Shown here piece after piece: positions 2,333 to 36,759 of a DNA stretch of 40,773 nucleotides. A program made the translations under genes and the position numbers. The stretch comes from a virus. Location of the stretch: positions 1 through 40,773 of the IMG/VR virus record IMGVR_UViG_3300030333_001235, one strand, 5' to 3'. The notes under the pieces were generated by a model. It was not told the origin of the DNA, searched no databases, and was given only the letters and a program-made list of their open reading frames with translations. Each line of letters begins with the position of its first letter. Positions within the stretch are counted from its first letter, which is position 1.

Positions 2333-3814
2333 TTAGACCACCACTAAGTTTCCTACCATTGCTGGATGCATTGTGCACTGATAAACATAAGTTGTACCAG
2401 CACTTAAAGATTGAGGTACTGTCCATAATTGGACTCCTTCCTGACTACCACTAACACCGTCAGTTACAGATCCACCACCTGAGGTTGTCCTCAAAGCAAA
2501 TGGATGTGCAGCACCTGTTTCATTATTAAATCTATATGTGAATCCACGATAAACATATATCGTAGGATTATCTGTTGTAGTATTGACACCACTACCTGAG
2601 AATCTATACGCACTGTTACCAGTAGCAGATACTATAAGGTTAAGGCAAGGAGATTCAATTGGATCCCATGATGTGCCATTATATACAACGTTATCACCCT
2701 CCATTGCTCCACCACTGAGGTAGAATGAAGAGTTAACTGTAACTGTATTGGAAGTTACAGCAGTTACAATACCATTACCACCAGCTACAGATAAAGTGGA
2801 GGTTGACAACTGTGCAGTTGTTGTACCACTATCACCAGTAACTGTTTTATAAACTTCTTGGACTATATTAGGTGCATCATTGGTGATCGTAAGGTCATCA
2901 CCAGATACAGCAGTGCTAATTGATGTACCACCAATTACATTGATAGTTGCAGTAGCACTACTAGCAGTCTTACTTCCTGAATCACTTCCTATTACGCCAT
3001 AGGCATTTTGGTTTAGGTCACCAAGGGTGCCTGTCATGTTTATGGTGAGGGTGTCTCCTGTGATTGCAGTCGAGATTTCAGTGCCTCCCGCAATTGTAAG
3101 AACATCAGTAGGAGCACTAGCAGTAGTACTGCCAGTGTCAGCAGTGATTCCTTCAAATAAATTTTGAGTGGTTCCACCGCCACCGCCACCCGATGAATCA
3201 TCGTTTGCAGGTTCCCATGCAGCATTGCTTGCATTCCATTTAATAACTTGTCCATCACTAGGTCCGCCTCCAACGGTCATATCTACATCACTAAGTAACC
3301 CAAGACTACTGTTTTCACTTATTAAGGGTACCCATCCACCACTTGTAGCAACTCTTCCTTTACCATCACCAGATACATATGCAAACATACCATGATGAGC
3401 AACATTATCAGGAAGATCTCCTGTAGTTGGGAAATGATTGCTATATTTTAGTTTACCATCAGCACCATCAACGTAAGTTAGAGCAGAACCTGTACCACCT
3501 GTCCAAAACTTAACGTCTCCTGTACCATTTGGTTTAATTTGCACGTCACCATTTGCGGATGATGTTATATCAAATCCACCTACATCTAAATTTGCTGTTA
3601 ACGCATCAACATGACCCTCTACAAACTGAGCACCATTCCATTTGAGGACTTGTCCAGTTGAGGGAGTTGTTACATTTATTTGAAGATTGGTATCGTTGCC
3701 AAGTTGTGTATACAACTCGTCTATGACGCTATTAAGTTTAATAGCACCATCTCTCAGACTGTCTCCAGTCCCGTCATTCGCTGACGATCCAATATTGAGG
3801 GTTTGTTTAGCCAT
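2333..3814 (-). CDS. Tail/baseplate protein with C-terminal blue-copper-type cupredoxin domain (493 aa)
   Basis: This is a virion structural protein by context. The N-terminus (QTLNIGSSANDGTGDSLRDG, then INSVIDELY-like helix) matches a leader common in marine T4-like phage tail proteins. Residues 40-210 contain display-type beta segments ending in a GGGGGG linker. Residues about 220-370 hold three copies of a 45-residue beta unit (DSGxxTA ... GGxxIxTAVxGDxLTI). The C-terminal 75 residues look like a cupredoxin: IYVYRGFTYRF, His437 in AAHPFAL, WTVP, and VYQCTMHPAMVGNLVVV with Cys480, His483 and Met486. Those four residues are the classic type 1 copper ligands. That copper is actually bound is inferred. 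A CCTAAATA element 21 bases upstream may be its promoter. Confidence 0.85.
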   Translation of the reverse strand: MAKQTLNIGSSANDGTGDSLRDGAIKLNSVIDELYTQLGNDTNLQINVTTPSTGQVLKWNGAQFVEGHVDALTANLDVGGFDITSSANGDVQIKPNGTGDVKFWTGGTGSALTYVDGADGKLKYSNHFPTTGDLPDNVAHHGMFAYVSGDGKGRVATSGGWVPLISENSSLGLLSDVDMTVGGGPSDGQVIKWNASNAAWEPANDDSSGGGGGGTTQNLFEGITADTGSTTASAPTDVLTIAGGTEISTAITGDTLTINMTGTLGDLNQNAYGVIGSDSGSKTASSATATINVIGGTSISTAVSGDDLTITNDAPNIVQEVYKTVTGDSGTTTAQLSTSTLSVAGGNGIVTAVTSNTVTVNSSFYLSGGAMEGDNVVYNGTSWDPIESPCLNLIVSATGNSAYRFSGSGVNTTTDNPTIYVYRGFTYRFNNETGAAHPFALRTTSGGGSVTDGVSGSQEGVQLWTVPQSLSAGTTYVYQCTMHPAMVGNLVVV

Positions 3815-3835: not shown

Positions 3836-3843
3836 TATTTAGG
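3836..3843 (-). promoter_or_regulatory. Possible late promoter CCTAAATA overlapping the stop of the YHYH gene
   Basis: The minus strand reads ACC TAA ATA at the end of the 662-residue gene, so the stop codon TAA is part of a TAAATA element. It lies 21 bases before the ATG at 3814, the same spacing seen for the NATAAATA elements upstream of gp25 and of the 59-residue ORF. It differs from TATAAATA at the first two positions, so it is a weaker match. Confidence 0.45.
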
Positions 3844-5827
3844 TGCCATCGAAGGTTTGTGCTGTTGAATCTAGTGTGCTGCTAGTGCTATCGAAGCGAT
3901 TAGCAGTATCACCACCTCCACCACTACCAGTTACTGTCAATACAGCTGGTTGTGAATCCAAAGGAGAGTTTTGTGCTTGTGTTGATGCCCCTACAGGACC
4001 AGAGATCCTACAGCGATATCGATATCCTGTCATATATGACAAGGAACTAATAGAATATGTGTTAGCAGTTGCTCCAGTAATAGCAGCAAACGCAAATCCA
4101 CCATCAGTAGACCTATACCACTGATATGTCAATGGTCCATCCTCAGGAAGTATCTGAGCTTGGACTGTGAATGTAGCAGTCTGATTAGCATTGACTGTCA
4201 CATTAGTAGGTTGCAGTGTAAACTGCAATGTTGGGACAACTGTGCCACCAGAGATAGCAAAGTTATTACCTTGATTTGTATGGAAATGACACCAATACCA
4301 AAGTATGTCAGGTGCATTACCAGGTACAACCCATTCCATTACACGACTGGTTGCATTTACAAATCCCATATGATATCCCATCATACTGACGACGACACCA
4401 TCCAACTTATAGGTGATACCCATCATATAATGGTCATGACCAGCTAATTCACCATCTTCTCCAGGTGATACCATGATAGGATGGTAAACACCACCGAAGG
4501 TTGCATTAGAATCATCATCTTGATTGAAGATATACTTCGTAGTTTCTCTCTCAAGAGCGAAATTAGCAGGTTTTTCAACACCATCAAAGTAGAATACCCC
4601 TGTTGATTGACCAGTTACGGTGTCTGTGCCTACTGTAACGGTAATAGTGGTCTCTGGTAACGATGCACCAGGAGCAACAGGTGCTACAGTGAACGTGGTG
4701 TCAATAGTTTCTCTTGTCTTATTACCAATAATGAAAGGAAACTTAACATTATCTACATTGTCTGGGTCTACTGTAAGGAAATAAGCATATGTTCCATCAG
4801 GATACTCAGGTGTAATGCAAAATCTACCATTATGAATGTCTAAATCCCCAGTTCCATCAACATACTCATAGTCTTCCATGAGTGTTCCAGCAGGTGGATT
4901 GTCTGAAGTGCTGCCATAATCAGGTCTTCCAGGTGCTTCTGTGTCTTTTACAGCATATGAAGTCCTCATTGTCCTTGTACCACTCAAATTATCCCAATTT
5001 GTGTCGTATGCGTAAGGTCCATAGATGGGAAATCCATCAAATGCTATGCCAATTATCTTAGAATGACCGTCAGGATGACGAATATTGTTACCATTATACT
5101 GAGTTGATCCATAATAATCATTATAACTCGCTATAGATGACCCTTCTTTCCAACAATCTAAGAAATGTGGGTCATGATAGTGATATTGACCACTCTGTTC
5201 TGGGTGTCCACCACAAGAATCTTCTCCAGAATCAACAAAAGGTATATCTCCAGCAGCAACCCAACTAAATCCTGGTGGTGGATTGAGTCCAGTACCAGCA
5301 GAAGGGTTAAAAATAGAAACACCATTAGCAGCAATACCAATTGCACCTAATGGAGTGTCAGTTCTTCCATTTCTTTGATCATAATATGAATAGGTACCAG
5401 TTACAGGAGTAGGTGCTTGTGTATCTACAATCAAATCTAACTGATCATCTGAGGATAACCAACACTCACCAGCAATAGAAGTAAATGTTGTACCTTTATA
5501 AACGAATTTCTGTTTTAAACCATCACTAAAAGTGAATAGTAAATGGTCTCCCTCATCAATTTGATTGTTAGTAAACAATACAAGATCATTTACGGATATT
5601 GATATTGTTCTAAGGTATCCGTCATGCGTATATTGATTATTATCAAATGTGCGAGCAATTCCAAATGTTCCTCCACGGTATAAAAAGTCATGGTCGAAAT
5701 CCTGTTCAGTAACTGTATTAGGGTTATTATCATTAGGAAACGTACCAAAAGATACAGGAGCAGGGAGACCATCCGATGCTACTGTAATAACTTTTGTTGC
5801 TTCGTTGTAGGAGGCTGTTGCTGCCAT
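3839..5827 (-). CDS. YHYH-domain structural protein with cupredoxin-like and Ig-like domains (662 aa)
   Basis: This is a virion-associated protein by context, probably a baseplate or tail decoration. The central domain (about residues 145-385) is a YHYH domain: PLGAIGIAANGVSIFNP, the tetrad YHYH at about 215-218, IIGIAFDGFPIYGPYAY, and NGRFCITPEYPDGTYAYF. The YHYH family is widespread but biochemically uncharacterised. Residues about 435-525 resemble a cupredoxin: VYHPIMVS near 449 and WYWCHFHTNQGNN near 512. The Cys-x-x-His pair is kept, but no Met occupies the usual axial position. Residues about 533-625 form an Ig-like domain (TYQWYRSTDGG ... YRCRISG), followed by a Gly linker and a repetitive FDSTSSTLDST tail. 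The start ATG (5827) is 14 bases after the giant gene's stop. The YHYH core is shared with a degenerate copy inside the giant protein. Confidence 0.88.
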   Translation of the reverse strand: MAATASYNEATKVITVASDGLPAPVSFGTFPNDNNPNTVTEQDFDHDFLYRGGTFGIARTFDNNQYTHDGYLRTISISVNDLVLFTNNQIDEGDHLLFTFSDGLKQKFVYKGTTFTSIAGECWLSSDDQLDLIVDTQAPTPVTGTYSYYDQRNGRTDTPLGAIGIAANGVSIFNPSAGTGLNPPPGFSWVAAGDIPFVDSGEDSCGGHPEQSGQYHYHDPHFLDCWKEGSSIASYNDYYGSTQYNGNNIRHPDGHSKIIGIAFDGFPIYGPYAYDTNWDNLSGTRTMRTSYAVKDTEAPGRPDYGSTSDNPPAGTLMEDYEYVDGTGDLDIHNGRFCITPEYPDGTYAYFLTVDPDNVDNVKFPFIIGNKTRETIDTTFTVAPVAPGASLPETTITVTVGTDTVTGQSTGVFYFDGVEKPANFALERETTKYIFNQDDDSNATFGGVYHPIMVSPGEDGELAGHDHYMMGITYKLDGVVVSMMGYHMGFVNATSRVMEWVVPGNAPDILWYWCHFHTNQGNNFAISGGTVVPTLQFTLQPTNVTVNANQTATFTVQAQILPEDGPLTYQWYRSTDGGFAFAAITGATANTYSISSLSYMTGYRYRCRISGPVGASTQAQNSPLDSQPAVLTVTGSGGGGDTANRFDSTSSTLDSTAQTFDGT

Positions 5828-5838
5828 CGTTTTACTTT

Positions 5839-5846
5839 TATTTAGA
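5839..5846 (-). promoter_or_regulatory. Possible late promoter TCTAAATA overlapping the giant gene's stop codon
   Basis: The giant gene ends GAC ATC TAA ATAAAAG. The string TCTAAATA is one mismatch from TATAAATA and overlaps the stop codon, as at the end of the next gene. It lies 11 bases before the ATG at 5827, closer than the 21-22 bases seen at other sites. Support is moderate to weak. Confidence 0.4.
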
Positions 5847-8800
5847 TGTCGTCGAAGATAATATTAGGTGTGAATCCAGTTAATACTGTAGCACCAGTCT
5901 GGACACTCAAGATTGCGGATAGTGAGTAGACAGGAGTTGCACCCGCAGCAGTTATAGCAACACGATACTCATCACCATCATCTGCCTGAGCAGCAGATAC
6001 TGTCTGATAGGTTGCTTGGTTAGCACCAATGATGTTGCTCCAAGTCTGTGTGCCATACTCCTTCTTCTGCCACTGATAATTCATTGTCTGACCGTTAGTT
6101 ACGGTAGAGACAACAGTGAATCCAGCAGTCTGACCTTGGTTAACAGTTACGTTAACTGGATCAATTACAATAGCAATTGTACCAGGATCGATTGTTGTAC
6201 CACCATCCTGATATTCGGATCCTTCGCCTGCGAGGACATCGAATCCACCGTTAATTGGACCACCGACAGGTTCTGTATAATCATCAGGTACCACGTTATC
6301 GATTGCTACTACTGGAGATGAATAACCAAGACCAGGAGTCTTAACGTCAATTCTAGTAATACCCATCAATGCCTTCAATCTAGCGTCAAATCCAGAAGAA
6401 GAGATAACGTCAACGTTAGGACGTGAAGTGTAACCGTCACCTGGGTTGGTGAGAATTGCGTTTGTTATCTGACCGTATGTAATCTCAGATATAGCAGCAG
6501 CATTTCTACCCTTAACAGATCCAGTGTATTCAAATGTGATTAGTGAGTTAGAAGACTCAATTAGAGCAACCTCACGAGCAAATTCCTCACCATCGATATC
6601 TAGTTTATCGCCAGCTTCAACTGGTGGGACAACTGTTGCTGCAATAACGTCTGCGTCAGATCCAATATATGAGAAACCAACAAATGTTGATCCCGCACGT
6701 GGGACTTCAGCGAAGATGATACGTGATCCAACGATCTCGTATGCGACTCCAGGTTCCTGAATAATACCGTTGAGTGAAACTAATATATTATTCTCAGGAC
6801 GTATAACGTTAGAGGATACACCTTCAGTCAATGTTAGTGAGTAGAATAATCCACCACGCTTAAGGTTGAATGAAGATCTCAATGAGTCAAACTCGAAGGA
6901 GATATCATCTAATTGACGTAACTTACCAACGTAGTAACCAATGAATTGTGATCCAACCTCAGGAGGCTCAGCGAACTGAATCTTATCTGAGAATGCAACG
7001 TATGATTGGTTACCACCAGGAGGTTGTAGGATACCGTTAACGAATGCTAATAGGTGACCAGCAGGGTCTGGGAAGTATGCCTGACCATTTGATATGGTTA
7101 GATCGAATATTGTTTGAGTACCATCAAATCCTCTGAAGTAACGATCAACTCTACCATCTAGTGTCCTAGCAGCAGAAATAGCAGCACTCCATCCAAAGTC
7201 AGATTCTATGGTCATATTGTCCATTAGATTTCCAACAGCATCCTCTACCCAGATGGTAGCAGTAATACCTTGTTGCTCAATTGCAACGACCTTAGCGTAT
7301 GATGAGTAAGTTGTCTCAGTGTATGATGTTACCTGTGCGTATATGGTTGGGAAGTTAGATCCAATCTCAACCTTACCAATGTTGTTTGTGCCAACAGTCA
7401 ATTCTGAAATAGGAGCACCAGCACCTACAGGTTGAATACTACCGATCCAAAGTTTGTGGATACCAGCATCAGTATCTAAAACATACTTGGTTACTACAGC
7501 AGTAAATCCTGGGTCTTTCTGTAATGTACCTTGTAGTAGTGAAACCTCATCACCAACTCTGAATGTATCTGTGATACCAGTATCAATGATAGCAGGACCA
7601 AGATTCAATTCTAATGTGTAACGACCATGTATATACTGGTTAAGTTGTAACTGTGTACCAGCAATACCCTTAATGTCTAAGATGTAGTCAGTAACACTAC
7701 CATAAATGATGTCGCCAGGTATCCAAGGAGCCTCAATGGTTTCAACGTCAATTGTAATTCTACCACCTTCGTTACCAGTTAGAGATCCAGACTTACTTAC
7801 ATACTCATCCATGTAACCTTCAGTTGCTGCTGATTTGGAGAAGAACCAATCACCTGTAGCAAAAGCACCTCTCTCAACGTTAATCAAGAATCTATCAGTT
7901 ATAGCAGTAACAGTAGATGTAGTGCCACTATCAGATCCTTCTAATATATCAGCAACGTTAATTGTTCCACTGATGGTATGAAGTTTCAGGAATGATATAG
8001 CAGTGTCAGCAGGTGCAGGTGTGCTTTGTAGCATTGTACCTGCATTAGATGTAGCACCTTGGACAACAACTTGCTCACCATTTGTGTAAGTATCAGACAC
8101 ACCAGGAGTTGTCTGTGATACACTACCAACATCAAAGTGCTTATAGATCTGACGTATAGATGCAACGTTCTCTTGGACTGTGCCTATCTCAGCAGCAGCA
8201 CCAGAGGTACCTCCATATATCACGTCAGCAGGATTCATTCCACCCTGTATAGGACATGCTGAATCATCAGTTGGGTATGTAGAAGCAGTTCTAGTAACAC
8301 CACTTCTTCTCACTACTGAGAATATTTGTGCACCATCATTAGAAGAATCTACTTGTAATGTTCTGAATCTTCCATCATGGATATATGAAGCACCAATTTC
8401 AAACCACTGAGCAGTAGCAGTTAGACAATAGAAGTATGTCTGACCTGTTAGACCTGTCAATGAAGTATCAGATGCTGGGATGTAACTCAATACATCACCA
8501 CGACGGAACTGGTTAGCACGGTTAATTCTTATTCTATATTCAGAGCGATCAAATCCAACTCTTACTTCAGGAGTTAGAGTAACTAGAGCAGGGTCAGTAT
8601 TATAATCCCAACCTGTTTCATATCTTGTTAGACGGTTAACAGCATCAGTGCTTGGTATCCACTGGACACTAGCATTTGTTGGGAATGATGACATCTCTAA
8701 AGCATACTCAATTGGGTTGAGTGAAGCATCAATCATAAATTCAACTGCTTCTTGATTCCACTCAAGTCTTGCTTCTGGAATGTATACATCGTAATTAGCT

Positions 8801-11800
8801 AACCATACTGGATCTTCAGTATGGAGATACATAACACTCTTAATATATTCTCTAACTCTGGTTAAGCAGAATAATAGATGAGATCTAGTTACGTTCTGGA
8901 ATGCTATGAAGTTACCTTCACCATCAAACCAATCTTGGGTCATTCTAAACGCACCAGCATTACCACCAGTTACCAAGTCATAACGCACTGCCTTCAGACA
9001 ATCCTCAGCAAATGTTATCGTTAGATTAGTAGTTGGATAGTTAGTTTGTGTGTCACTAAATGCTCTAGCAGCAATTGCTTGCTGGTTAAAGAGAATCATG
9101 TTAGCAATATTCTTACTATTATTCTCTCCACCACCTAAGGCATGAGTCATTAAATCATATAGAGTATCAATAGCAGATGTTACGTTATAGCAAGTACCTG
9201 ATTGATACTGAGTATTACTATTGAATGGGAAGGTCTTAGTTACACTATTAACAAGATAATTTGCTGAGTTATTAACTGCCTCATTAATAGTCTCGATGTA
9301 GATATCTAATAGAGTATCGATAGCAGATGCAGTCTCTTGGCAAGTTTGATTCCATGTGCCGTTAGCATCTTGTCCACCACCACTAAAGTCATAGGTAATA
9401 TCAAGATCTCTTACAACAACCTCAGGTGTATACTTAACAGGCCATATGATAGGCATATCATATGATCTACCAGCAACGTTATTAGGATTACTAATAGCGT
9501 CGGTAACCATTTGGACTAATTGTGTGATTTCATTCTCTACATTCTGTCCTTCATTACCTGTGTAATCATTGGATACTAGTCTATTTCTATAGTAATCAAG
9601 ATCACTTGTAGGCCATGCCCATGAATTTGCTTCTTGTACTTGTAATTTCTGACCATCAGCAAAGTCTGTTACACGAGGATATGTGTGGTTAGTAGCATTC
9701 TGGTCTTGAGAGCAAGTAAATGTTAGAGAATTGCTATCAATAGTAACAGTATCATCTGTTCTTAGAGTGTGTCCAACAACTGTCAGAGTTAATTGACCAG
9801 TAGTAGGCACATAGTATGCATCAGTAGGAGTAAATGTATCTCCAGTATTATTATTCTTGATGCAGTTAGCAAGAGCACTTACAAAGTTATGCTTATAATT
9901 ACCACCCTGTATCAATGCTCCAGTATTAGCACTTACAAATGTATGTTGATGTGTATCACCAGCTGGAGACTTACCAACGTTAACCATTATCATGCCATTC
10001 TGTACTCTAATACCACCTGTCTTACATGACTTGAAGGTATGAGATCCTATGAATGTTGATGGGACTCCAGAGAGTACTTGTATATCAAATGTATCAGTAG
10101 TTACATTAGATACTGCTAACCATTCATTACTTGCATGATCAGTAGGTCTTGGATATAAGTGAGTAGTTTCATGCTGATCAAGATCACATGAGAATCCTAA
10201 TGCATAGTCATCTATGTAAACATAATCATTTGCTTTCTCAATTCCACCTTCGTCAGCAGATACAAATGTATGAGTGTAACTACCACCACTGATAACAGCA
10301 CCAGGTACTGCACTTACAAATTGGTGATCATATTGATTATTAGATGCAGCAACATCAACATTAATTGTTATCTTACCACTTTGATGATGTAGTGAATTAT
10401 GCTTCGCAGAATCAAATGTATGAGTGTAGTTACCACCAGCAGTCACAGCACCAGATGTAGCAGAAGCAAATCTGTGTGTATAGTTACCAGCAACAGTCTC
10501 ACCAACATCAACAGTTATTGTTGAATTCTCCCAGTGGATTCCATCATTAACAGCACTTACAAATGCGTGTGTATATTCACCACCACCTCTTACAACACCT
10601 CTGATAACTGCACCATCTAGTGAAGATACCCATGTATGAGTTGTAGTGTTAGAAGAAGTACCAACGTTAATATCGAAATTATTACCAGATACGTTAGATA
10701 CAGTTAACCAAGAATTGTTAGATGCAGGGTCACTTACTCTTGGATAAGCATGATTTGATTGCCCACCATCTTCAGCACATGTGAAGGTGAATGATTCATT
10801 CTTAACTTGTACCTTATCTCCATTAGCAAATGGATGGTTAGGAATAGTTACTGTCAATACACCAGTTCCAGGTACGAAGTTAGCACCTGTTGGAGTGAAT
10901 GCATTTTCTGATCTTACAAATGTATGCTGAGTAGTGTTAGATGAAATACCAACGTTTACAGTAATAGTAGTATCAGTAGCAGATATAATAGGTACTGTTG
11001 TATCGTAGTATGGGTCATCAGCAGAAGCACCACCGTATCCATTAGGACGTGGATATCTATGCTCACTACCATTAGAGTCAGCAAGACACTTGAATACTAA
11101 TGATTTCTCTTCAATGAAGACTGACTCATGAGCAACCTTAACTCCATTAGGTGCAGCACTGTGGAAAGTATGTGCGTCAGTATTAGTAGAAGGTGCAGAT
11201 GCTAAGACCTGAATATCAAATGTATTTTGAGTTATGTTAGTAACTGGTACCCAAGTATTACTGATTGGGTCAGTTGATCTTGGATATGCCTTAATAGCAT
11301 CATTACCAGAAGCACCACCAAATCCACAACTGAATTGAATTGACTCATCAGTCATCATGATTCTATCACCTATGGTGAATCCATGATTAGCAATGGTGAG
11401 AGTCATAATACCTGTAGTAGGATTATAAGCACCATCAGTAACAGTATGTGTTGATCCACCTCTGAAGTTATGATTACCAATGGTCATTGTCATTTCACCA
11501 GTGGTAGGCTCATAGGTAGCAGCAGAAACTAGGTAGTTAGCACGAGGTGTCTTACCAACGTTAACATCAAAGTTATTACCAGATACGTTAGATACAGTTA
11601 ACCACTTATCATGTGCAGGGTCTGTTGCTCTTGGATAAGAATGATTAGTAGCATTACCATCCATGTCACAAGTCATGACTAATGAATTATCTGCTAACTT
11701 GATTCTATCTCCATTAGAGAATGGGTTATTAGTAACAGTAAGAGTTAATACACCTGTAGCAGCATTGAATGCAGCACCAGCAGCAGTATACTTAGCATGA

Positions 11801-14800
11801 CCAACCTTCTTAATTTCTATAGAATGATCGTATGCTCTATCTCTCTTAGCCTTAAGTCCATTATTAGCAAATGACTGGAAGGTATGAGTGAATGATCCAC
11901 CAGCTCTGATTGTGCCTCTCTTAATTGCACCAGTTTTTGCTCTCTTAAATGTATGTGCAGAGGTGTTAGTAGATGGTGTGATATCTAAGACTTTAACAGT
12001 AAATCTGTTATCGTCAATTCTTGTAATTGTTAACCATCTGTTGCTTGCAGGATCACCATGTCTAGGATAAGCATGCTCAGTTGCATGGTCATCTTTACCA
12101 CATGTGAAGATCAATGAATTGTCTTCAAACATGATCTGCTCACCTGTAGTCATTCCATGACTATTCAAGGTGACTGTCATAACACCAGATACACCACTAT
12201 ATGTAATTGCAGTTGGTGTCTTACCTACAGCAGGTTTAAAGATATGAGCATGATTAGATGCTCCAGAAGGTGATGGGTTTACATTAACTGTTATAGTGCT
12301 ATCAGTTACAGCAGTTACAGCAACAGCATCTTGATATGCAGGGTCATCAGAAGTAGCACCACCAGTACCATTAGGACGTGGATATGCGTGATCAGTTTGA
12401 TGATTATCCTGAGCACAAGTGAATGTCATTGATAGTGGGTTAATATAAACACTATGTGCAGTTGTAATACCGTGATCAGGACCAACAGTAATTTCCATAT
12501 TACCGTTAGCAGGATTGTAGTCTACATTCTGAGGATCGAAACTCTTGAATTCTGATTTACCAACGAAGATATCGAATGTATCTGTATCAGCATTCTCGAT
12601 AGCCTTCCACTTACCACTAATAGGATCAGAAGATCTAGGATAAGTCTTGTCATTGGTACTACCGTCCATTGTGCAACGCAGTGTTATTGCATTGTCATCA
12701 ATCTTAACAAGTGATCCATTATCTAAACCATGACCGTTAGAAGTAATTGTTAAATAACCTGTCTCTCCACTGTATACAGCATTTGTTGGAGTGAAGTTAT
12801 CAATTATATTTCTTGGATATGCATTAGTAGATGAATAACCATCCTGATCACATTCTAATACAATACCACCTGTTGCAATCTTAACACTCTGACCAACCTT
12901 AAGTGGGTGGTTACCAATGTTAAGCTCCATCTCACCTGTAGTTGGAGTATAGTCAGCATCTGTAGGTGTGTAACTAACAGCACTTGTTGTGCCTACGTTA
13001 ACTTCAAATGAATTTGTCTGGACATTAGAAATCTGCACCCACTTACCACTGATAGGATCTGTGCCTCTAGGATAAGCATGGTTATCAGAGTTATTATCCA
13101 TATCACAAGTAAGATTCAATGCATAATCATCTAACTTAATAAAGTCATCATTAGCGAATCCATGATTAGGAACTGTTAACTGTAATACACCTGTAGATGG
13201 TGTGTATGTAGCACCTGTTGGGCTATGTCTTGTTACACCGTCATCAACAATTCTAAGTGAATTATTGTATGCAGGGTCTGTAAGTCTTGGATATGAATGA
13301 TCGGTAGAATTACCATCCATTGAGCAAGTAAATGTCAAACCATTAGGAGCAAGTTTGATACTGTCATTACCCTTCATCAAGGTAGCAACTGTTATACTCT
13401 TAGGTCTAGCAGATACAAATGAATGAGTTGTTGTATTTGTAGATGGTATGTTGAATAATACTTGGACATCGAATGTATCAGTAGTTACATTGAATACCTT
13501 CATCCACTCATCACTATATGGGTCAGTTGCCCTAGGATATGCATGGTTAGACTGATCACCATCTTGATCACATGTGAATGTTACGAATCCATCGTCTACC
13601 ATAATTCTGGTACCATTCTTCATACCGTGTTTCGCAACAGTAAGTGTCATTACACCTGTTGTTGGATTGTATGAAGCATTGGTTGGAGTAAGTTTTGCAG
13701 GAGCAACAAACTTATGATCATAATCACCACCAGTTGCTATTGCTGCTCTAGTAATACCATTAGCAGTTGCACGGACAAATAGATGAGTAGTCTGGTTAGT
13801 AGAAGGTACTTCGTCTAGGACTTTAACATCAAATGTATCATCTGTTGTGTTGTATATTCTAATCCACTCACCACTTACAGGATCACTTGTCCTTGGATAT
13901 GAGTGCTCAGTAGCATTACTATCTTGTAAGCAAGTGAATACTAATGAGTTGTTAGCAATCTGAATACTCTCCCCATCCATGAATCCATGATTAGGAACTG
14001 TGAGAGTCATCCAACCTGTAGTTGGGTTGTAACTAGCATCAGTTACAGAAGCATGCTGACCAGATGCAACGAAGTTGTGGTTATATTGTCCACCACCAAC
14101 TAATGCACCAGAGGTTGCAGATATAAAGGTATGAGCATCACTATTACTGATAGCACCATCACCAACATCTAGTGTGATAGTACCAGTCTGTCTCTTAAGA
14201 CCATTGGATGCAAATGATACAAAGGTATGATCATAAACATCATTAATACCAGACTTACCTACATGGACATCAAATCCTGTACCAGATACATTAGAAATAG
14301 GTAACCACTGATCAAATGTTGGATCTGTCCTTCTAGGATATGTGTGGTTAGTAGCATTCTGATCCTTAGTGCAAGATAGAGTTATAGCATTCTCATCAAA
14401 CTTAACATAATCTTGTGCATGCCATATAGCAGCAGCACTAATATTTGTGCAAACGTGAGTTGTATTATTAGAGATAGCTGCTTGACCAAATAGGTTACCA
14501 ACTTGGACATCATATGTGTTGATACCTCTGTTGAATACCTTCAACCATTGTCCACTAACAGGGTCAGTAGATCTTGGATATAAATGATCAGTTGCCTGAC
14601 TATCTTCATCACATCTAAATGTTAATGATTCATCTCTTATAAAGATCTTATCACCATTGTGAATAGGATGACCAGGTTGTGTAACTCTTAATATACCAGT
14701 TGCAGGATAGAAAGTTACAGTATTAGGAGTGTATGTATTTGGAGGAGTAAAACTATTAGCAAGGGTTACTGTCATCTTACCTTCTGTAGGATGATAAGCA

Positions 14801-17800
14801 ATGTCAGTAGCAGTATGCTCAGTCTTACCTAAATCCCAAATTGGTATATTAGTATCATAGAAGAAGTCCTTCTTATGAGTGATGCAATTTGTAGCAGCAG
14901 ATAAGAATGCATGGACTGATGTATGAGTAGAAGGAATTACATCCAATACTTCAACTTGGAAAGTATGTGTAGATGATTCCTGAATCATGATCCACTTACC
15001 ACTTACAGGGTCAGAAGGTCTTGGATATGAATGACTACTTACATCTATAGCAGTAATACAATCAGTAGAAGCAGAAACGAAATTATGGACTGATGTATCT
15101 GTAACAGCACCTTGTCCACCGTTAACGTTAACTGTAATACTAGTTGATGTTACAGCTGTGATATTCAAATATGTGTCGTATGCATAGTCACGACCAGTAG
15201 AAGTTGCTGCACCAGTTGCACGAGGATATGATTTAGGAGTTGTATTACCATCACTATTGAAATCACATGTTAGAGTAATTGACTCAGGTGTAATCTTAAT
15301 CATATCCTGATTAGGAACCAAACCATGAGATACTCCAAATTCAAGTACCATATCACCTGTTGTTGGATTGTAATCAACATCAGTAGGAGTGAATCTATGT
15401 GTATCCTTCTTACAACTGAATGCTAATGAATTATCAGCAATCTTGATATATGTGTGTGGAAGGAATCCATGATTATTAACAGTAAATTTAAGTAAACCTG
15501 TATTAGGATCATACTTAACATCAGATGGAGTATGAGTTGTGGTTGCTGCTCTAGGATATGTCTTCTGAGCAGAATGACCATCCATATTACATGTGAATGT
15601 TAATGAATCATCCTTAAGTCTTACACTATCACCAGCATGACGTAAGCAATTTGCTGAAGATGTTACATAAGTGTGGTTGTATACACCACCAGACTTAACT
15701 ACAGAAGTTGTAATGCAATTAGGTGTAGCAGACTTGAATAAATGTAATGTTGTATTGCTCTGAGGAATATCTGTTAATACTTGGACATCAAACTCATTAC
15801 CAGTTACATTCTCAACCTTTAACCATGATCCTGATGCAGGGTCGTGGCAACGTGGGTATGTATGATCAGTTGCATGTAAATCCATCGCACAAGTAAATGT
15901 CAATGAATTATCAGCAATCTTAATGAAGTCACCATTTTGTAAGTTATGACCAGGAATACTGATCTTCATCTTACCTGTTACTGGATTGTGATCAATTGCA
16001 GTAGGTGTTAAACCAACATTAGGTGCGAATGTATGAGTTGTTAAATCTGAAGATACACCAACATTTAACTCAATAGTTGTAGCAGTAACATTCTGAATTG
16101 TAATAGGCTTATTATAGAATGGGTCAGCACCACTGTTACCGATATATGCAGATCCAGATGATCTAGGATATGTCTTAGTAGTAACGTTGTTATCTAAGAG
16201 ACATGTAAATGCTACAGAATCCTGTGTTAGTTTAATGTTGTGTCCAACTACTAAATCATGCTCACCAATCTCAAGTATTAAAGTACCATTTGATGGGTTG
16301 TATGTAGCATCAGATACTGTAAATGGTATTTCAGGTGTCTTACCAACATAAACATCAAATTGATCTCTGGATACATTACGGACATCCATCCACTTACCAG
16401 AATAAGGATCAGAAGCACGAGGATATGCATGGTTGGTTGCATTGTTGTCCATGTCACAAGTAAATGTGACTGCACCATCATCAAGTTTTACATAATCACC
16501 GTTAGCAAAGTTATGGTTTGCAACAGTTAATCTCATTAAACCAGTAGATCCATTATATGTTGCACCAGATACACTGTGGATGCTACGATCACGGAAACTA
16601 AACTTCCTATCTGTTGTTAGATTTAATCTACCATTAGATGTATCGAAACTAGCAGCACTAACGTCATACTCTACTTTAGGTGTAATACCAACGTTAACTG
16701 TAATAGAATCTGATGTAGTAGAAACAATAGGTAATGGCTCGTTATGTACTGGATCCTTAGGTCTTGGATATGAGTGATGTGAATGGTGATCATCCATATC
16801 ACAAGTAAATGTCAAGCTACCTTGTGCCAACTTGATATGTGTTCCAGCTGCTAGACTATGTGATCCAATTGTTAAAGTAAGAGCACCAGTCTCAGAATTA
16901 AATGTAGCAGCAGTTGGATTGTAACCTACAATAGGAGACTTACCAACATCAACTGTAAATGTGCCACCAGGAATATCAGACTCAACAACATCTAACCACT
17001 TACCTACGCAAGGATCAGTAGGTCTTGGATAAACGTGGTTAGTATAATGATTATCCATTGAGCAAGTGAATGTCATGGAATTTTCAGTAATCTGGATCTG
17101 CTCACCCTTAGTGATCTTATGTCCACCTACTGTCAGTTTCAAATGACCTTTCGCTGCATCATATTCTGAGTAAGTTGCAACATGATGTGTAGCACCAACA
17201 AAACGATGGTTTCCAACATCTAATGTTAACTCTCCATCAACCTGATTATAATCAGCATCAGATACGTTGTATTCTACTCTAGGTGTAGATCCAACATTAA
17301 CCTTAAATACGTCCTTATTTGTTACCTCTTCAACTAATAACCACTGATCACCAGCAGGATCTTTTTGTCTTGGATATCCATGCTTAGTAGCATAGTTATC
17401 TTGAGAGCAAGTGAATATTAGAGATCCATTGTGTATCTTAACTTGATCACCAGTCTTAAATCCATGATCGTCACAAGTTATCTGTAATACACCACTATCA
17501 GGATCATATGCAGCATCCTTAGCAGTATGAGTTGTAGAATCTGTTAAACCATGATCAGCAATGGTGATTGTCATCATTCCTGACTCAGGATTATATGCAG
17601 CAGTAGAAGCAGTGTGCTCTGTATTACCAACTTTGAGCACTTCTATAGCAGTATTACCAGCAGGGTCACCAGATCTAGGATATGAATGAGTTGACTGATG
17701 GTTATCCATATCACAAGTGAAGTTAATCGAATTGCTGACTAACTTGAGATATGTTCCAACAGTATGATTGTGTGATCCAACATCTAACCATAGATCACCA

Positions 17801-20800
17801 GTGCTGCTATCATATTTTGCATCAGTGATATTGTAAGCAATAGTAGGAGCAGGACCAACGTTAACTGTAAATGTATTAACAGTTGCAGATTCTCCAGCAA
17901 CTATTGAACCAGCAGAGGATCCAAATCCAGCATAATTAGCAGAAGCAAATATACCACCGCCACCTGCTAGACCAGTATTCTGTCCACCAGGAGTAGTTAC
18001 TTCAGATATGAAGTTACCATCTATCCATAGTTTAATAGCACCAGGACCAACTTGAACTGTACCACCAATGGTTATTTCAAATACTATTTCATGATCTCCG
18101 TTATCAAAGTAAGATGATAGATTACTTACTTGAAGATCCATCATTGCTAAACCAGTGTCACTTGTATATGAAGCACCACCAGAATATGAATTAGCACCAT
18201 TACCTGCACGAATTCTAAAGTAACTACCACCGTCTCTAATACCTACCCAGATACCAGCAGTAGAATCACCTGCTTCAAATAAGCAGCAATCTATTGGAGA
18301 TGAAGGTAACTTAGTAACTAATCTGAATACTGCATCTTCAGTAGGTACAATACCTGTGCCAGTATCAGTTGTAGAAATCTTATCTTCACCAAACTTGAAT
18401 GATCTAGTAATGATATTATTAGGTTGGTTAATCTGAATACCATCAGTACCAGAATTGAATAGAGATGTTACAGGTCTTGGGACAGCATCGTATATAACCT
18501 GATCTACAGTATGACCAGCATCATTAGTAATAACCTGACCCTTCATTGCACGAACTGCATACTCTTTCGCTTTGTTAATAATCCAATTAGTTTCAGTAGA
18601 TGCGTTAGTAACGTGGTCTAAATTACCATTATATGTTGTATAGAATTCAGAAGCATACTGCATCCAGTTATTACCACCATACTTGAGGTTGAATACCAAC
18701 GATCTCAAGATATCAGTAACATCATGCACACAGTTAATAGATCCACCAGGAATTAATAATCCAGGATATTGTTGTAACCCAGCAGCAACTGCTTGCTCTG
18801 CAATATATCTAATATTTCCATCAATAGCATCACCACACTTCCAGAATAAATCATCTCTTGGGTTTTGCTCATATGTCTGGACTGGTTTCAAATCAGGCTC
18901 ATGTCCTTCTACATAATCTCTACCAAACGCATTACGCATTACCATAGTGCAGATATCTCTTAGAATCTTAACTACAGTAATAGTTGCTTCATACTCAGTC
19001 TCAATATGCTTAAGTGAATTATCTTCTGTCTCAACATATAATGCAGCAGCATCATATGTCTTCTCGTTACAATCAAATCTTATGTCATGTACCAATGCCT
19101 CGATCATATCGATAACATCATCTTCACAGTTAACATGACCACCAGGAATCTGTAGATTCTCATACTTAGAAAGGTCATTCATTATGCTGACACATTCTTT
19201 AGCAATGAGATGTCTGTTTGTCCAAATAGATTCAGCAGCATCTAGATATCTGTCATTTGAAGATCTATTTGCTTGAGGATATCCTTCAGTATCTAATACA
19301 ATAGTAGAGTCTCTATATGCAACTCTAGTTGTATAAACTGGAGAATAATATTCTTCTTGGACATATGCAGGAAGACCTAATGCATTACCATCATTATCTG
19401 TTAGGTTTGCAGATGTTTCACCAGGAGACATTAGAAGGTTATTAATTGCCTTCATTGAAAGCATCTTGGCATACTCAAATGCATCCATCATTGCACTCAA
19501 TTCATGCTCTACATTGAGTATGTTATTTTGATCATCAAGATACTTGTCTATAACAGATTGTGTCTGATATGTACCACCAGTTACTAGGTCAGCAATTACA
19601 CCAGGAATAATGAAGTCCTTGATATCACGTTCACAGTAGGGTTGACCAAATCCAGGCATCTCAAGGAAGTCATATACAGTGCCATTGATTTCCTTCTCAT
19701 ATTTGTTCTGAATATATCCAGCAGTTTCTTCTGCAATATAATCTCTATTCTTCCAAAGTTGGAATCCACCTTCTCTAAATCTCTGATCATTAGGAGCAAT
19801 AACCTTAAGTAAATCATCACCTAAAGTAGTGATTTCAGCCTGGACATTAGCAGCAGCAGGAGATGAGAAGTTATTAGGAATTCTCAGTCTGGTAGTATAG
19901 ACACCAGTTAATGTAGTATCAGTTGTTGTTATAACATCCTTAGCAAGTTTTACAACTTCATTCCATGTGAATAGTGATTGTAAAATCTCATTACCAATGA
20001 AGTTTAACTCACCACCAACAGTTAGATAAGTTCTTGCTGTATAGATTGTGTGATAGTTTCCACCTTCTCTTAAGTCCTTAACAAGTGCACCTAAGATATA
20101 ATCCTTAGTATCTCTAATACACTTATCAGTACCACCATAGCTGTTTTCAGCAGGTACATCACCCTTAATAGTAAAGTCTGAGAATGCAGCCTTCATTCTA
20201 CCAACTGCTTCTTCTGCTATCCATGCACCATTAAGGTCAATGATATCAGCACAGTCTCTAAACTCTTGACGACCTAAATCAACGTCCTCAATAATAGTGA
20301 GAAGATTAGCATAGTCAACCTTCTTAGCAGCAGCATTAGAAGATCTTGATCCACTATACTCTGCATATACTTCAGTAGTTGAAAGTATAAATGGTGCTTC
20401 ACCATCTAATCCTAATACAATATTATCTTCTGTATAATCAACTTGTGTAGGTGCTGTAAATCCTGTTGTATGATCTGCTGTGCCCTTCTTAATATACAAG
20501 TTATCAATATGACCAGCCCAATGTGATGTCTGGTTAAAGTCCATACCAATAGATGCAGAAGCATAAAGGTATGTGTTAGTATCTGCCCAGTTAGATCCTA
20601 CTTGTGCACCATTAATATACATTTGGGTAACACCAGATGATCTAACAACAGATAGGTGATACCAAGTACCAGTTGTTGCAACTACGTTACCACTATTAAT
20701 TCCTAAAGTTGTGCCGTTATATACCTTAATTGCTTGACCATCCATTCTGATATTCAAACCTTGAGCAGAACTCAAACGACGGAAGTCAAATAGGTATTGT

Positions 20801-34223: not shown

Positions 34224-36344
34224 TTAGAAACAGGATTCGCTGACTGGATAAGTGAATGTATCACTTGGATAATCAATGATATTTATACCCCCTAGGTCAC
34301 CGAAATTATAACCATTAAAGTTATTAGGATCGAAGGTGGGGATTGCTACATCGTTGATTGTATAGTCAATTGGATTGACTGAGGGATTAAATATTGTTGG
34401 ATCTACGCCAGGTGGTACCGCAATTGATCCACCAGCAGGTAAAACTTGGATAGGCAACCTTTCAGTGTCATCTGGAGTGCCTTGTATCGCTATCGGACCA
34501 ACACAAACCTGACCACTACCATAATCTACACTTCCAACAGAAGGATTTAGCGTTAATTCGGTTTCATCCCTTGTTGTGACCAAAATTAAGTTACCTTGAC
34601 CATCATCTCTAATATTTACAGGCACTAACACCTGATTGGTGACATTTGTTGACAAACCAGGAGATGAAACTGCTACAGCAGTCGCTCCATCGGTCAAAGT
34701 TAGATTTACAAGGTCTTCTGTGTATCCAGTTGCATAAAATGTCCCAGATTTCACAGTTGAGAAGGATGGTTTACATTTTCCACCTGTACCATCACCAGAA
34801 TCATCATCTGTTGAGTCACCATCGTCTTTTGGACTACCAGCAAACCCTGAAGGGTCATAAAGTGGGTTACCAAAGTCTAGACATTGGGTAAATACGTTTC
34901 CAAAGGTGAATTCATCAAGATTTTGACCTAAAGTCATCTGTGTAACGTTACCAGAGATGCTAGGATCGCTACTATCAACCATCGCACCAAATTTAGACCC
35001 ATCTATGCGTCCATTGAAGCGATTATTGATACCTGCCTTATTCCATTGGTCAATTCCTTGTAAAATCTTAGTTCCTAGTTGAGATCCAGTCAAAGAAGTG
35101 TCATTTCCATTATAATAAACGTAAGATTTCGGAATAACGTAAAAACTTGTAGGGTCAATGATGACAGGATCGATTGAAGCGATAGAATACTTCAATAAGT
35201 CCTTTTTAATCTTCTGTTTTGTCGTCTCATTGAGTTTATTTCCTGTTTTTGGTCTAATTGCGACGTAAACCTTACCATATACAGGAGGAGATAGTTTCTC
35301 ACCCCCATAGGCGGTCACAGACGCTGCCTGGGGGTATATTTCAGAGACTATATGCTCATAATCATTCTCAGTAACTGCCCTATTCTGGGTTGCATACGCT
35401 CTAGGTGCTCTAAACTTGACAGAAAGTGCTGTTTCACGGTCTTCACCGTCTTGAGCAGCATCCTTAGTCGATAATCTTATGGCATTTGGACTAATTACAC
35501 GATTATCAGAGTCAACTACGTTACCAACGAAGTCAAAACCCTTTGCACCGTTAGCTTCAACCCCATCAGTGGACACATATGTGACTTGAATGTATTCACC
35601 ATCGATTAATTTACGTCCAATTGACCCATCTCCGAAAACAAGACGGTATCTCATGTCATCTGTCTCTTCCAAATAGTAAATTCTGGAAGTTGCGTCAGCA
35701 TTTGTGACATTTGCAGCAAGACTATAGGTATCAGTCTCTGAAGATTGAGCAGTTGGTGAAATATCTACTGTTAAAAGACCAGTATCGACGTTTTCATCGG
35801 GAATAACGAAGTCTTGCTTCCTAGTATAGTCAACTGTATAGTTTGCAGTAAGCAAATTACCTTGATATACAAGGACATTATCGAAAATTGCCTGTCCAGT
35901 AGCAGTATCTACTGAAACTTGGATGTCTTGAGTGAGTGCAAAGGTATAACTATCGTTATCATTGTCTGCAACAAAGACATCACCCTTCCTTAGGGTAGCA
36001 AATTCTGGAAAAGTAGTGCCATTTAGACCAATTGTAGTCTGTGCAACCAATTTGACACATGCTCTAGGTGCTTTTATTGACCTTGGAGTGTAATTTAACT
36101 GCTTTGCGATCCTTACAATGTTATCTCTGACCGTTGCAGTCTCTAAAAATGCTTCGTTTAACGCCATGTTAGCGTTAAATGCTGTATAATATGTGTTATA
36201 TGCTAGTATATCGATCAAATATGACGCAGAACTACCCTCAAAATCATAATCGGTAAACTCTTTTCGTGTCCGAAGGTATGATTTTATGGATTCTTTGATT
36301 TCAAAGAAGTCTAAAGACGTTAATTGTGAAGGAATTGCTGGCAT
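34224..36344 (-). CDS. 6: Baseplate wedge subunit gp6 (Baseplate_J family, 706 aa)
   Basis: T4 gp6 forms the continuous inner ring of the baseplate and holds the wedges together. The first 350 residues carry the family pattern: SLDFFEIKESIKSYLRTRKEF, ASYLIDILAYNTYY, NEAFLETATVRDNIVRIAKQL, RKGDVFVADNDNDSYTF, YYLEETDDMRYRLVFGDGSIG, and RAPRAYATQNRAVTENDYEHIV. T4 gp6 has about 660 residues. The excess is partly an acidic low-complexity insert (DDGDSTDDDSGDGTGG, about residues 500-520) and a Pro/Asp/Tyr-rich tail ending in VSESCF. The ATG at 36344 is one base after the gp25 stop, and the giant gene begins five bases after the gp6 stop, so the three are probably co-transcribed. A TATAAATA lies inside its 3' end. 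Confidence 0.93.
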   Translation of the reverse strand: MPAIPSQLTSLDFFEIKESIKSYLRTRKEFTDYDFEGSSASYLIDILAYNTYYTAFNANMALNEAFLETATVRDNIVRIAKQLNYTPRSIKAPRACVKLVAQTTIGLNGTTFPEFATLRKGDVFVADNDNDSYTFALTQDIQVSVDTATGQAIFDNVLVYQGNLLTANYTVDYTRKQDFVIPDENVDTGLLTVDISPTAQSSETDTYSLAANVTNADATSRIYYLEETDDMRYRLVFGDGSIGRKLIDGEYIQVTYVSTDGVEANGAKGFDFVGNVVDSDNRVISPNAIRLSTKDAAQDGEDRETALSVKFRAPRAYATQNRAVTENDYEHIVSEIYPQAASVTAYGGEKLSPPVYGKVYVAIRPKTGNKLNETTKQKIKKDLLKYSIASIDPVIIDPTSFYVIPKSYVYYNGNDTSLTGSQLGTKILQGIDQWNKAGINNRFNGRIDGSKFGAMVDSSDPSISGNVTQMTLGQNLDEFTFGNVFTQCLDFGNPLYDPSGFAGSPKDDGDSTDDDSGDGTGGKCKPSFSTVKSGTFYATGYTEDLVNLTLTDGATAVAVSSPGLSTNVTNQVLVPVNIRDDGQGNLILVTTRDETELTLNPSVGSVDYGSGQVCVGPIAIQGTPDDTERLPIQVLPAGGSIAVPPGVDPTIFNPSVNPIDYTINDVAIPTFDPNNFNGYNFGDLGGINIIDYPSDTFTYPVSESCF
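34280..34287 (-). promoter_or_regulatory. Perfect late-promoter match TATAAATA in the 3' end of gp6, before the giant gene
   Basis: The minus strand reads TATAAATA, identical to the T4 late -10 consensus. It encodes Ile-Asn in the gp6 tail (GGINIID). It lies 61 bases upstream of the giant gene's ATG, farther than the 21-22 bases of other sites, but could give the giant gene its own late transcript. A chance match is possible in A+T-rich coding DNA. Confidence 0.5.
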
Positions 36345-36345
36345 T

Positions 36346-36759
36346 TTACGCTCTCTCTAGGAGAAATTCGACGTTTTGGGTTTCTGATTCACCCACAATG
36401 GTATAATCTATACCTATTTGGACTGAATTGATCTCAGAATCATCACGAAGTGCGACACCTGTTACTACAATACGAGGTTCAAGTCTAGCTAGACAGTTGT
36501 AAATTTCACTTTTTATGGTATCTACTGCAAAAGGATCCCAAGGTTCAAACAAAAGTGCCTTAACTTTAGATCCAATGCTTCTTTGAAAGGGTCTTTCACC
36601 GAACATTGTCAGAATTAGGTTACGAACTGACTGCTTTATAGCATTCTCATTCTTAACCACACCAAAATCACCAGTATTAGGATTCGCTTTAAAAGACACA
36701 GCTAAGTCCTTGAATCCTCTACTGACATATTTTTCTGATCTGAACCTGTAGGTGGGCAT
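36346..36759 (-). CDS. 25: Baseplate wedge subunit gp25 (GPW/gp25 family, 137 aa)
   Basis: gp25 is a small lysozyme-fold-like wedge protein that joins gp6 and gp53 near the hub and helps start sheath assembly. Its length is typical of the family (T4 gp25 about 132 residues). Recognisable elements are FKANPNTGDFGVVKNENAIKQ, SVRNLILTMFGERPFQRSIGSKV, LLFEPWDPFAVDTIKSEI and EPRIVVTGVAL. ERPFxxxxGS is the usual family motif. The ATG at 36759 is preceded by GATAAATA (36788-36781) at 21 bases. The gene start lies inside the end of a probable 59-residue ORF in another frame, and TAA-A-ATG joins it to gp6. Confidence 0.95.
   Translation of the reverse strand: MPTYRFRSEKYVSRGFKDLAVSFKANPNTGDFGVVKNENAIKQSVRNLILTMFGERPFQRSIGSKVKALLFEPWDPFAVDTIKSEIYNCLARLEPRIVVTGVALRDDSEINSVQIGIDYTIVGESETQNVEFLLERA

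Follow-up and report, generated by a model that had tools for sequence, protein, structure and literature searches.

A giant baseplate-cluster gene with 26 YPR units

We analyzed a 40,773-base stretch of viral DNA, IMG/VR virus record IMGVR_UViG_3300030333_001235 (here called the window), in which a single uninterrupted open reading frame (ORF) encodes a giant protein with a long array of domains built around a Tyr-Pro-Arg (YPR) motif. Exactly 26 YPR motifs were counted, all on the minus strand within this ORF, with tyrosine codons running from position 17682 down to 9681 (Table 1). A first-pass annotation, made from the letters alone, had arrived at the same number, placing the array at 9622-17838 with a mean spacing of about 107 residues. 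The measured mean is 106.7 residues, though the spacing is irregular (range 59-197), and the extent lies close to a block of about 9625-17943 found through an empty site in contig L035, described below. Each motif marks a divergent domain of ~90 residues, and some units end early, after YPR or after CxxD. A hidden Markov model (HMM) of the unit found 27 domains above 20 bits, all in residues 5458-8208 of the giant protein. The longer linkers between units are occupied by a second repeat, 'GGxYxHxFVSA', of about 40-60 residues (window 9860-10590).

At fixed offsets from YPR, Cys and Asp are each found in 24 of 26 units, and a 25th Cys was recovered by eye after a length change. The motif His is present in 20/26 and is replaced by Lys in five and Asn in one; the Asp of DP is found in 20/26, and an additional His lies 30 residues upstream in 17/26. 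The core had been written as FTC-x-x-D-x5-H-x-YPRxxDP. In its strict form, FTC..D.{5}H.YPR..DP, this fits 11 units, whereas the looser C..D.{5}[HKN].YPR is found in 23 places, compared with a composition-based expectation of 4e-5.

The giant gene lies in a baseplate cluster. On its upstream side it is accompanied by a PAAR protein and by homologues of gp25 and gp6; genes for a YHYH protein, for a connector resembling gp9/gp10 and for a gp8-like product follow downstream. The order PAAR - gp25 - gp6 - giant - YHYH protein - gp10 - hypothetical - gp8 is shared between the window and P-TIM40; P-RSM6, S-WAM1 and S-SZBM1 have the same order with some names differing, and none of these three has a gene annotated PAAR. 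The same four isolates are the closest gp6 relatives of the window (57-61%). The giant ORF aligns with four isolates at 54-61% identity across 3,800-5,400 residues of its N-terminal part and at 42-53% across 1,250-2,300 residues of its C-terminal part, and it matches phrog_701 with an E-value of 0. Related contigs (n = 36, L001-L036) were gathered through an anchor outside the array; among them, L006 carries psbA and is 74% identical to the window directly after the array. Because the gene order matches cultured cyanomyoviruses and psbA is present on L006, the window is read as a cyanomyovirus. L006 (199,258 bases) also has a larger open frame, of 9,914 residues, with 32 unit matches. The database annotation of the giant protein in some phages is 'gp7, baseplate wedge initiator'. 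We use 'gp7' for position only, because the name derives from where the gene lies and from database annotation, and a phmmer search with the first 1,000 residues gave no meaningful PDB chain match and did not detect homology to T4 gp7. An identification of the giant as VrlC, from PMC7029224, was dropped; the S-SM1 annotation has VrlC as a separate gene after gp8.

Table 1. Features of the window. Unit coordinates and bit scores are from an HMM built on the units; the bracketed number is the Tyr residue in the giant protein.
Feature	Position	Strand	Remarks
gp9/gp10-like connector	2333..3814	(-)	PF07880, phrog_677
YHYH-domain virion protein	3839..5827	(-)	PF14240
Giant ORF, 9,458 residues	5842..34218	(-)	gp7 / 'baseplate wedge initiator' position, between gp6 and YHYH gene
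Optional insertion block with YPR array	9625..17943	(-)	giant residues ~5426-8198; absent from L035, flanks colinear
YPR unit 1 (5513)	17602..17847	(-)	88.8 bits
YPR unit 2 (5615)	17266..17544	(-)	105.4 bits
YPR unit 3 (5730)	16921..17199	(-)	101.7 bits
YPR unit 4 (5817)	16663..16935	(-)	105.2 bits
YPR unit 5 (5932)	16327..16590	(-)	115.3 bits
YPR unit 6 (6017)	16033..16341	(-)	89.7 bits; motif His to Lys
YPR unit 7 (6121)	15748..16029	(-)	114.9 bits
YPR unit 8 (6221)	15547..15720	(-)	48.6 bits; ends early after YPR
Half unit without YPR	15397..15543	(-)	44.0 bits; terminates at CKKD
YPR unit 9 (6331)	15112..15405	(-)	79.2 bits; motif His to Lys
YPR unit 10 (6398)	14914..15045	(-)	29.7 bits; only C-terminal half, no Cys/Asp at fixed offsets
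YPR unit 11 (6547)	14494..14751	(-)	103.8 bits
YPR unit 12 (6627)	14242..14490	(-)	92.2 bits
YPR unit 13 (6774)	13786..14064	(-)	116.8 bits; first in four-unit model
YPR unit 14 (6894)	13423..13707	(-)	117.6 bits
YPR unit 15 (6976)	13225..13455	(-)	67.7 bits
YPR unit 16 (7049)	12967..13239	(-)	116.6 bits
YPR unit 17 (7134)	12808..12987	(-)	66.3 bits; ends early after YPR
YPR unit 18 (7193)	12538..12804	(-)	99.6 bits; motif His to Lys
YPR unit 19 (7279)	12265..12555	(-)	91.6 bits
YPR unit 20 (7384)	11953..12237	(-)	106.3 bits
YPR unit 21 (7528)	11533..11805	(-)	117.9 bits; used for single-unit model, pLDDT 81.6
YPR unit 22 (7645)	11170..11463	(-)	101.2 bits; Cys loop longer
YPR unit 23 (7722)	10921..11199	(-)	71.1 bits
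YPR unit 24 (7825)	10633..10914	(-)	109.8 bits
YPR unit 25 (8022)	10045..10281	(-)	76.7 bits
YPR unit 26 (8180)	9595..9852	(-)	96.8 bits
gp6-like baseplate wedge gene	34224..36344	(-)	PF21379, phrog_219
gp25-like baseplate wedge gene	36346..36759	(-)	PF04965, phrog_261

Conservation, placement and distribution of the units

The Cys/Asp/His/YPR core had been proposed to be under constraint, and the alignments bear this out strongly. When the window is compared with 27 related contigs, 22-23 of the 26 unit positions show no change in the motif Cys, Asp, Tyr, Pro and Arg, and 18/26 none in the motif His; for the array as a whole, 26% of columns are invariant. A diverse set of 306 units less than 60% identical was drawn from matches on 155 contigs; in it Cys48 is conserved in ~100%, Pro60 in 100%, Asp64 in 96%, Tyr59 and Arg61 in 95% each, Asp51 in 90% and His29 in 88%, and position 57 is His in 73%, Lys in 18% and other residues in about 9%. 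Since many contigs of this set had been fetched with the motif pattern, the count was repeated on L001-L036, which were gathered pattern-free. There, Cys, Asp51, Tyr, Pro, Arg and Asp64 are each present in 59/59 units and His57 in 50/59, the remainder being Lys.

The irregular spacing (102, 115, 87, 115, 85 ...) recurs, slightly changed, in most contigs spanning the array. In five same-group relatives, 22-25 of the 26 units are the reciprocal best match of the unit in the same place, and unit order is colinear except for one unit in L007. The same-place reciprocal best units drop to 17 in L026 and L027, with some rearrangement, and unit-by-unit positional correspondence with the window is lost in P-RSM6 and P-TIM40. 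Adjacent units are no more similar than distant ones. From this we conclude that the units arose by duplication long ago and then held their places in this group, with arrays differing across genera. Recent tandem expansion was rejected, as no pair of units exceeds 75% overall DNA identity (median 63%) and adjacent ones show no excess similarity. Units 24 and 21 do share a 52-base stretch with 94% identity (window 10659-10710 and 11553-11604), against about 63% for units in general, perhaps through local recombination.

Several relatives have the giant protein and an empty array site. Contig L035 is 58-70% identical to the window on both sides of the block, aligning up to residue 5425 and again from 8199 with ~25 residues between. 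The giants of the cultured phages S-WAM1 and S-SZBM1 contain no units; they align to window residue ~5240 and resume at ~8221, a wider gap than that of L035 in the same place. Judged from these alignments, the block is an optional insertion, and because S-WAM1 and S-SZBM1 are cultured and carry the giant with 0 units, the array is dispensable for an infective particle in relatives. A second site is indicated by two units of L035 that lie elsewhere, near window residue 4290; in P-TIM40 and P-RSM6, both regions contain units. The two L035 units (residues 1950-2150 of its giant, in which the window's array site is empty) are flanked by two C-x-R-D repeats. In the window, a Phycobilisome (PF00502) match above cut-off (E 3.5e-7; window 21877-22188, residues ~4011-4114) covers such a C-x-R-D motif, and several degenerate copies follow, at giant residues 4199, 4700 and 4862 and, in still looser form, at 5031 and 5163. 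We take this motif to resemble the bilin-attachment Cys-x-Arg-Asp of phycobiliproteins. Other cyanophages give weaker Phycobilisome matches, and a phmmer search against PDB returned no phycobiliprotein. Other features recognised in the giant ORF, all outside the array, are a second YHYH domain, a beta-propeller repeat, two concanavalin/LamG-like regions, a CBM_5_12-like carbohydrate-binding stretch and, close to its end, an Ig-like stretch.

The YPR domain is already common among cyanophages. Matches come from 325 phage records, whose organism names start with Synechococcus, Prochlorococcus, Cyanophage or Marine. Among the isolates searched it is restricted to cyanomyoviruses, and pelagiphage HTVC008M and T4 have 0 units. 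A genome-contig scan with a four-unit query, which reaches close relatives only, gave no bacterial relative, and we found no account that describes the domain as a module. Unit number, counted by profile with partial units included, ranges overall from 0 to about 32. The Prochlorococcus isolates have 20 (P-RSM6), 15 (P-SSM2), 14 (P-SSM4 and P-SSM3), 13 (P-SSM7), 11 (P-HM2), 10 (P-HM1), 7 (P-RSM4), 5 (P-TIM40 and P-RSM1) and 0 (P-TIM68). Synechococcus isolates with units are S-SSM7 (17), Syn19 (6), Syn1 (4), S-SM1 and S-SSM5 (2 each), and Syn9, Syn33 and S-RIM2 (1 each), and S-WAM1, S-SZBM1, S-PM2, S-SM2, S-ShM2 and S-CAM1 have 0; S-RSM4 (0 units, no host entry) was omitted from the host test. 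At least five units are present in 10/11 Prochlorococcus isolates versus 2/14 Synechococcus isolates (Fisher p 2e-4, among phages that share ancestry), and unit counts differ by host (Mann-Whitney p 0.0025, or 0.007 with two genera collapsed and ancestry not otherwise corrected). These phages were hand-chosen, the five-unit cut-off was set after the counts had been seen, and host means isolation host only, so that the association of unit number with host is a lead and not a test. In S-SM1 the giant is T4-GC969, annotated as a virion structural protein, with two YPR units. T4-GC969 is among the proteins detected in purified S-SM1 virions (Sullivan et al. 2010, PMC3037559), which places the carrier protein in the particle and says nothing on exposure of the units.

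Predicted fold of the unit

AlphaFold2 was run with 98 diverse units. A single unit (95 residues) was predicted as all-beta with a predicted local distance difference test (pLDDT) of 81.6 and a predicted template modelling score (pTM) of 0.69, and a four-unit segment (380 residues) gave a pLDDT of 79.3 and a pTM of 0.41, with linker stretches below 50. In the four-unit model, a GGxYxHxFVSA linker contributes two strands that come after the unit. The models agree with the first-pass view that the units are folded rather than low-complexity sequence, and refute disorder. The same annotation had envisaged a long beta-fibre extending from the baseplate. Beta domains and a gene in the baseplate cluster were indeed found, but a continuous fibre is unproven, given the pTM of 0.41 and the low-confidence linkers; the four-unit model, ordered beads joined by such linkers, fits beads on a string better.

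In comparisons with VIA-align, the top-ranking matches of the single unit included the FCCH domain of Uba1/Uba6 (Z 6.0, 2.2 Å over 64 residues) and the endosialidase of phage phi92 (Z 5.4). For the four-unit model, phi92 endosialidase residues 255-340 ranked first (Z 7.3, 2.5 Å over 84 residues) and endoNF residues 425-508 fifth (Z 6.2). Barrels of riboflavin synthase and V-ATPase reach scores close to those just given, and we regard them as further instances of the same small-barrel arrangement. The top Foldseek rows (fucosidases) were discarded at a root-mean-square deviation of 11 Å. Among Pfam families, End_beta_barrel (PF12195) matched 10 of the 98 units weakly (best E 2e-4) and E1_FCCH (PF16190) matched 7/98 (best E 0.0078). 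The array itself has no PF12195 match and nothing above the curated cut-offs of Pfam and NCBIfam; the giant ORF has one PF12195 match elsewhere (13.9 vs cut-off 35) and one to E1_FCCH, also below cut-off (12.1 vs 29.5). The array sequence matched nothing in PDB, and the only PDB hit of the profile with E <0.001, an iota-carbonic anhydrase, was discarded as a sum of weak pieces (i-Evalues 5.8 and worse). Sequence and model comparisons, each weak but agreeing and partly independent, point to a beta-barrel of the E1-FCCH/endosialidase type.

Possible roles of the array and comparison with known systems

Metal binding had been named as one possible reason for the kept core. In that reading each unit would hold iron or zinc through Cys48, Asp51 and His57 or His29; with six copies of the protein this would give >100 sites per virion, a number that would suit the Ferrojan horse idea. 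T4 has tail fibres with iron-bearing HxH sites, and such fibres have been proposed for a marine phage (PMC11705849); the Cys is also nearly invariant and alone in its domain in 272/306 units. The sites of T4 gp37 and of Alteromonas phage R22Y are likewise repeated His-containing motifs in phage tail proteins, but they are trimeric HxH sites, whereas the unit consensus reads H-x-YPR with no HxH pattern and its His is freely Lys, at the frequency given above. Cys48 is retained where Asp51 and His57 are both replaced, and His29 varies with Gly20 and Thr25 of the N-terminal half and not with the Cys loop. Because no covarying ligand set was found to travel with the Cys in the 306 diverse units and His57 is often Lys, the metal reading is weakened, and we now consider it very improbable. 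Four of the other conserved positions look like two charge pairs in the alignments, Asp51 being accompanied by His or Lys at 57 in 264/271 units (Asp51-His57 odds ratio 13) and Arg61 by Asp64 in 288/290 (odds ratio 240). An intradomain disulfide was rejected because 272/306 units have a single Cys. Interchain disulfides, or another bond between protein copies in the baseplate, would account for a Cys that persists in ~100% of units whatever its neighbours are, which is unusual for a purely structural residue; burial in the barrel core would give the same conservation, and we regard such cross-linking as quite unlikely.

Our preferred account, to which we give an even chance, is that the array serves as an accessory tail module of beads-on-a-string form, multivalent and probably glycan-binding. 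Each unit would be a small beta-barrel with a constrained loop (Cys48, Asp51, His/Lys57, Tyr59-Pro60-Arg61, Asp64) that most likely closes the barrel or shapes a binding site. The 26 beads on flexible linkers would plug into one of at least two sites in the giant baseplate protein and be displayed outside the baseplate, where many weak contacts with host surface polysaccharide could hold the virion while the main receptor-binding parts engage. In the K1F endosialidase polysialic acid is bound at three sites, of which the beta-barrel is one, and the loops of this barrel make it a hotspot of discrimination between hosts (PMC12632334). Host-glycan binding is taken as most likely because of this analogy together with the optional, variable-number nature of a module in a baseplate protein. 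The preferred account also draws on the predicted fold with its barrel matches, on the empty sites in colinear relatives, on T4-GC969 in S-SM1 virions, on the host association and on the charge pairs. Several points weigh against it. All VIA-align Z scores are below 8, a level at which the tool warns of a merely common arrangement, and Foldseek against PDB gave nothing below E 0.001. No sugar-binding residue was picked out and no ligand is known, and the conserved residues may serve folding alone. The host association comes from 25 phages of shared ancestry, with P-TIM68 (0 units) and S-SSM7 (17) as exceptions. The kept unit order argues against freely interchangeable receptor-binding repeats, and could reflect a structural, position-specific role.

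That last point leads to the main rival, in which the array is a long baseplate arm or scaffold whose barrels set reach and stiffness as a ruler and bind nothing. Order and irregular spacing kept by position (22-25/26 reciprocal best) are expected of a length-defined part, and the conserved residues resemble fold constraints. However, infective relatives with the same flanks lack the block, which shows that its length is not required by the core baseplate, and unit number is variable and tracks isolation host; we judge a spacer to be somewhat unlikely. Multivalent glycan binding could be extended to a modular adhesion system, in which a cassette with a unique lone-Cys loop is inserted in 0 to about 30 copies at fixed sites of the giant protein and its number influences which picocyanobacteria are held, Prochlorococcus rather than Synechococcus. 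This extension we consider unlikely as it stands.

Little is known of how Prochlorococcus and Synechococcus are recognised by T4-like cyanophages, whose giant baseplate proteins mostly bear no annotation beyond 'virion structural protein'. A domain with a predicted fold, a presence/absence contrast (S-WAM1 and S-SZBM1 versus P-RSM6 and P-TIM40) and a host correlation make a host-recognition part directly testable. The near-invariant lone cysteine in a repeated tail-protein domain is in addition a concrete chemical puzzle.

In gene position, the closest known systems are the gp7-position giants of cyanomyoviruses (phrog_701, phrog_2885; P-SSM2/P-SSM4), with which the N- and C-terminal regions align end to end and many of which also carry YPR units. 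The window has 26 units in one block, whereas isolates range from 0 to about 20, housed in a single gene or in several. The unit itself falls in phrog_1276, an unnamed PHROGs cluster of unknown function to which each of the 98 diverse units tested gave a match; clusters of tail and virion proteins contain it as well. In fold, E1_FCCH of the ubiquitin-activating enzyme (PF16190) is a barrel of the same type with a weak sequence match to the units, but it belongs to a eukaryotic enzyme of different function. The endosialidase beta-barrel (PF12195; phi92, K1F/endoNF) is the best structural match of the multi-unit model and is also a phage tail domain. It occurs as one barrel per chain in a trimeric enzyme and forms no array, and no sialidase family was matched by the array, by the giant ORF or by those neighbouring genes that were scanned. 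Relative to that barrel, the YPR-unit model has extra unaligned residues, which are most likely the Cys-YPR loop.

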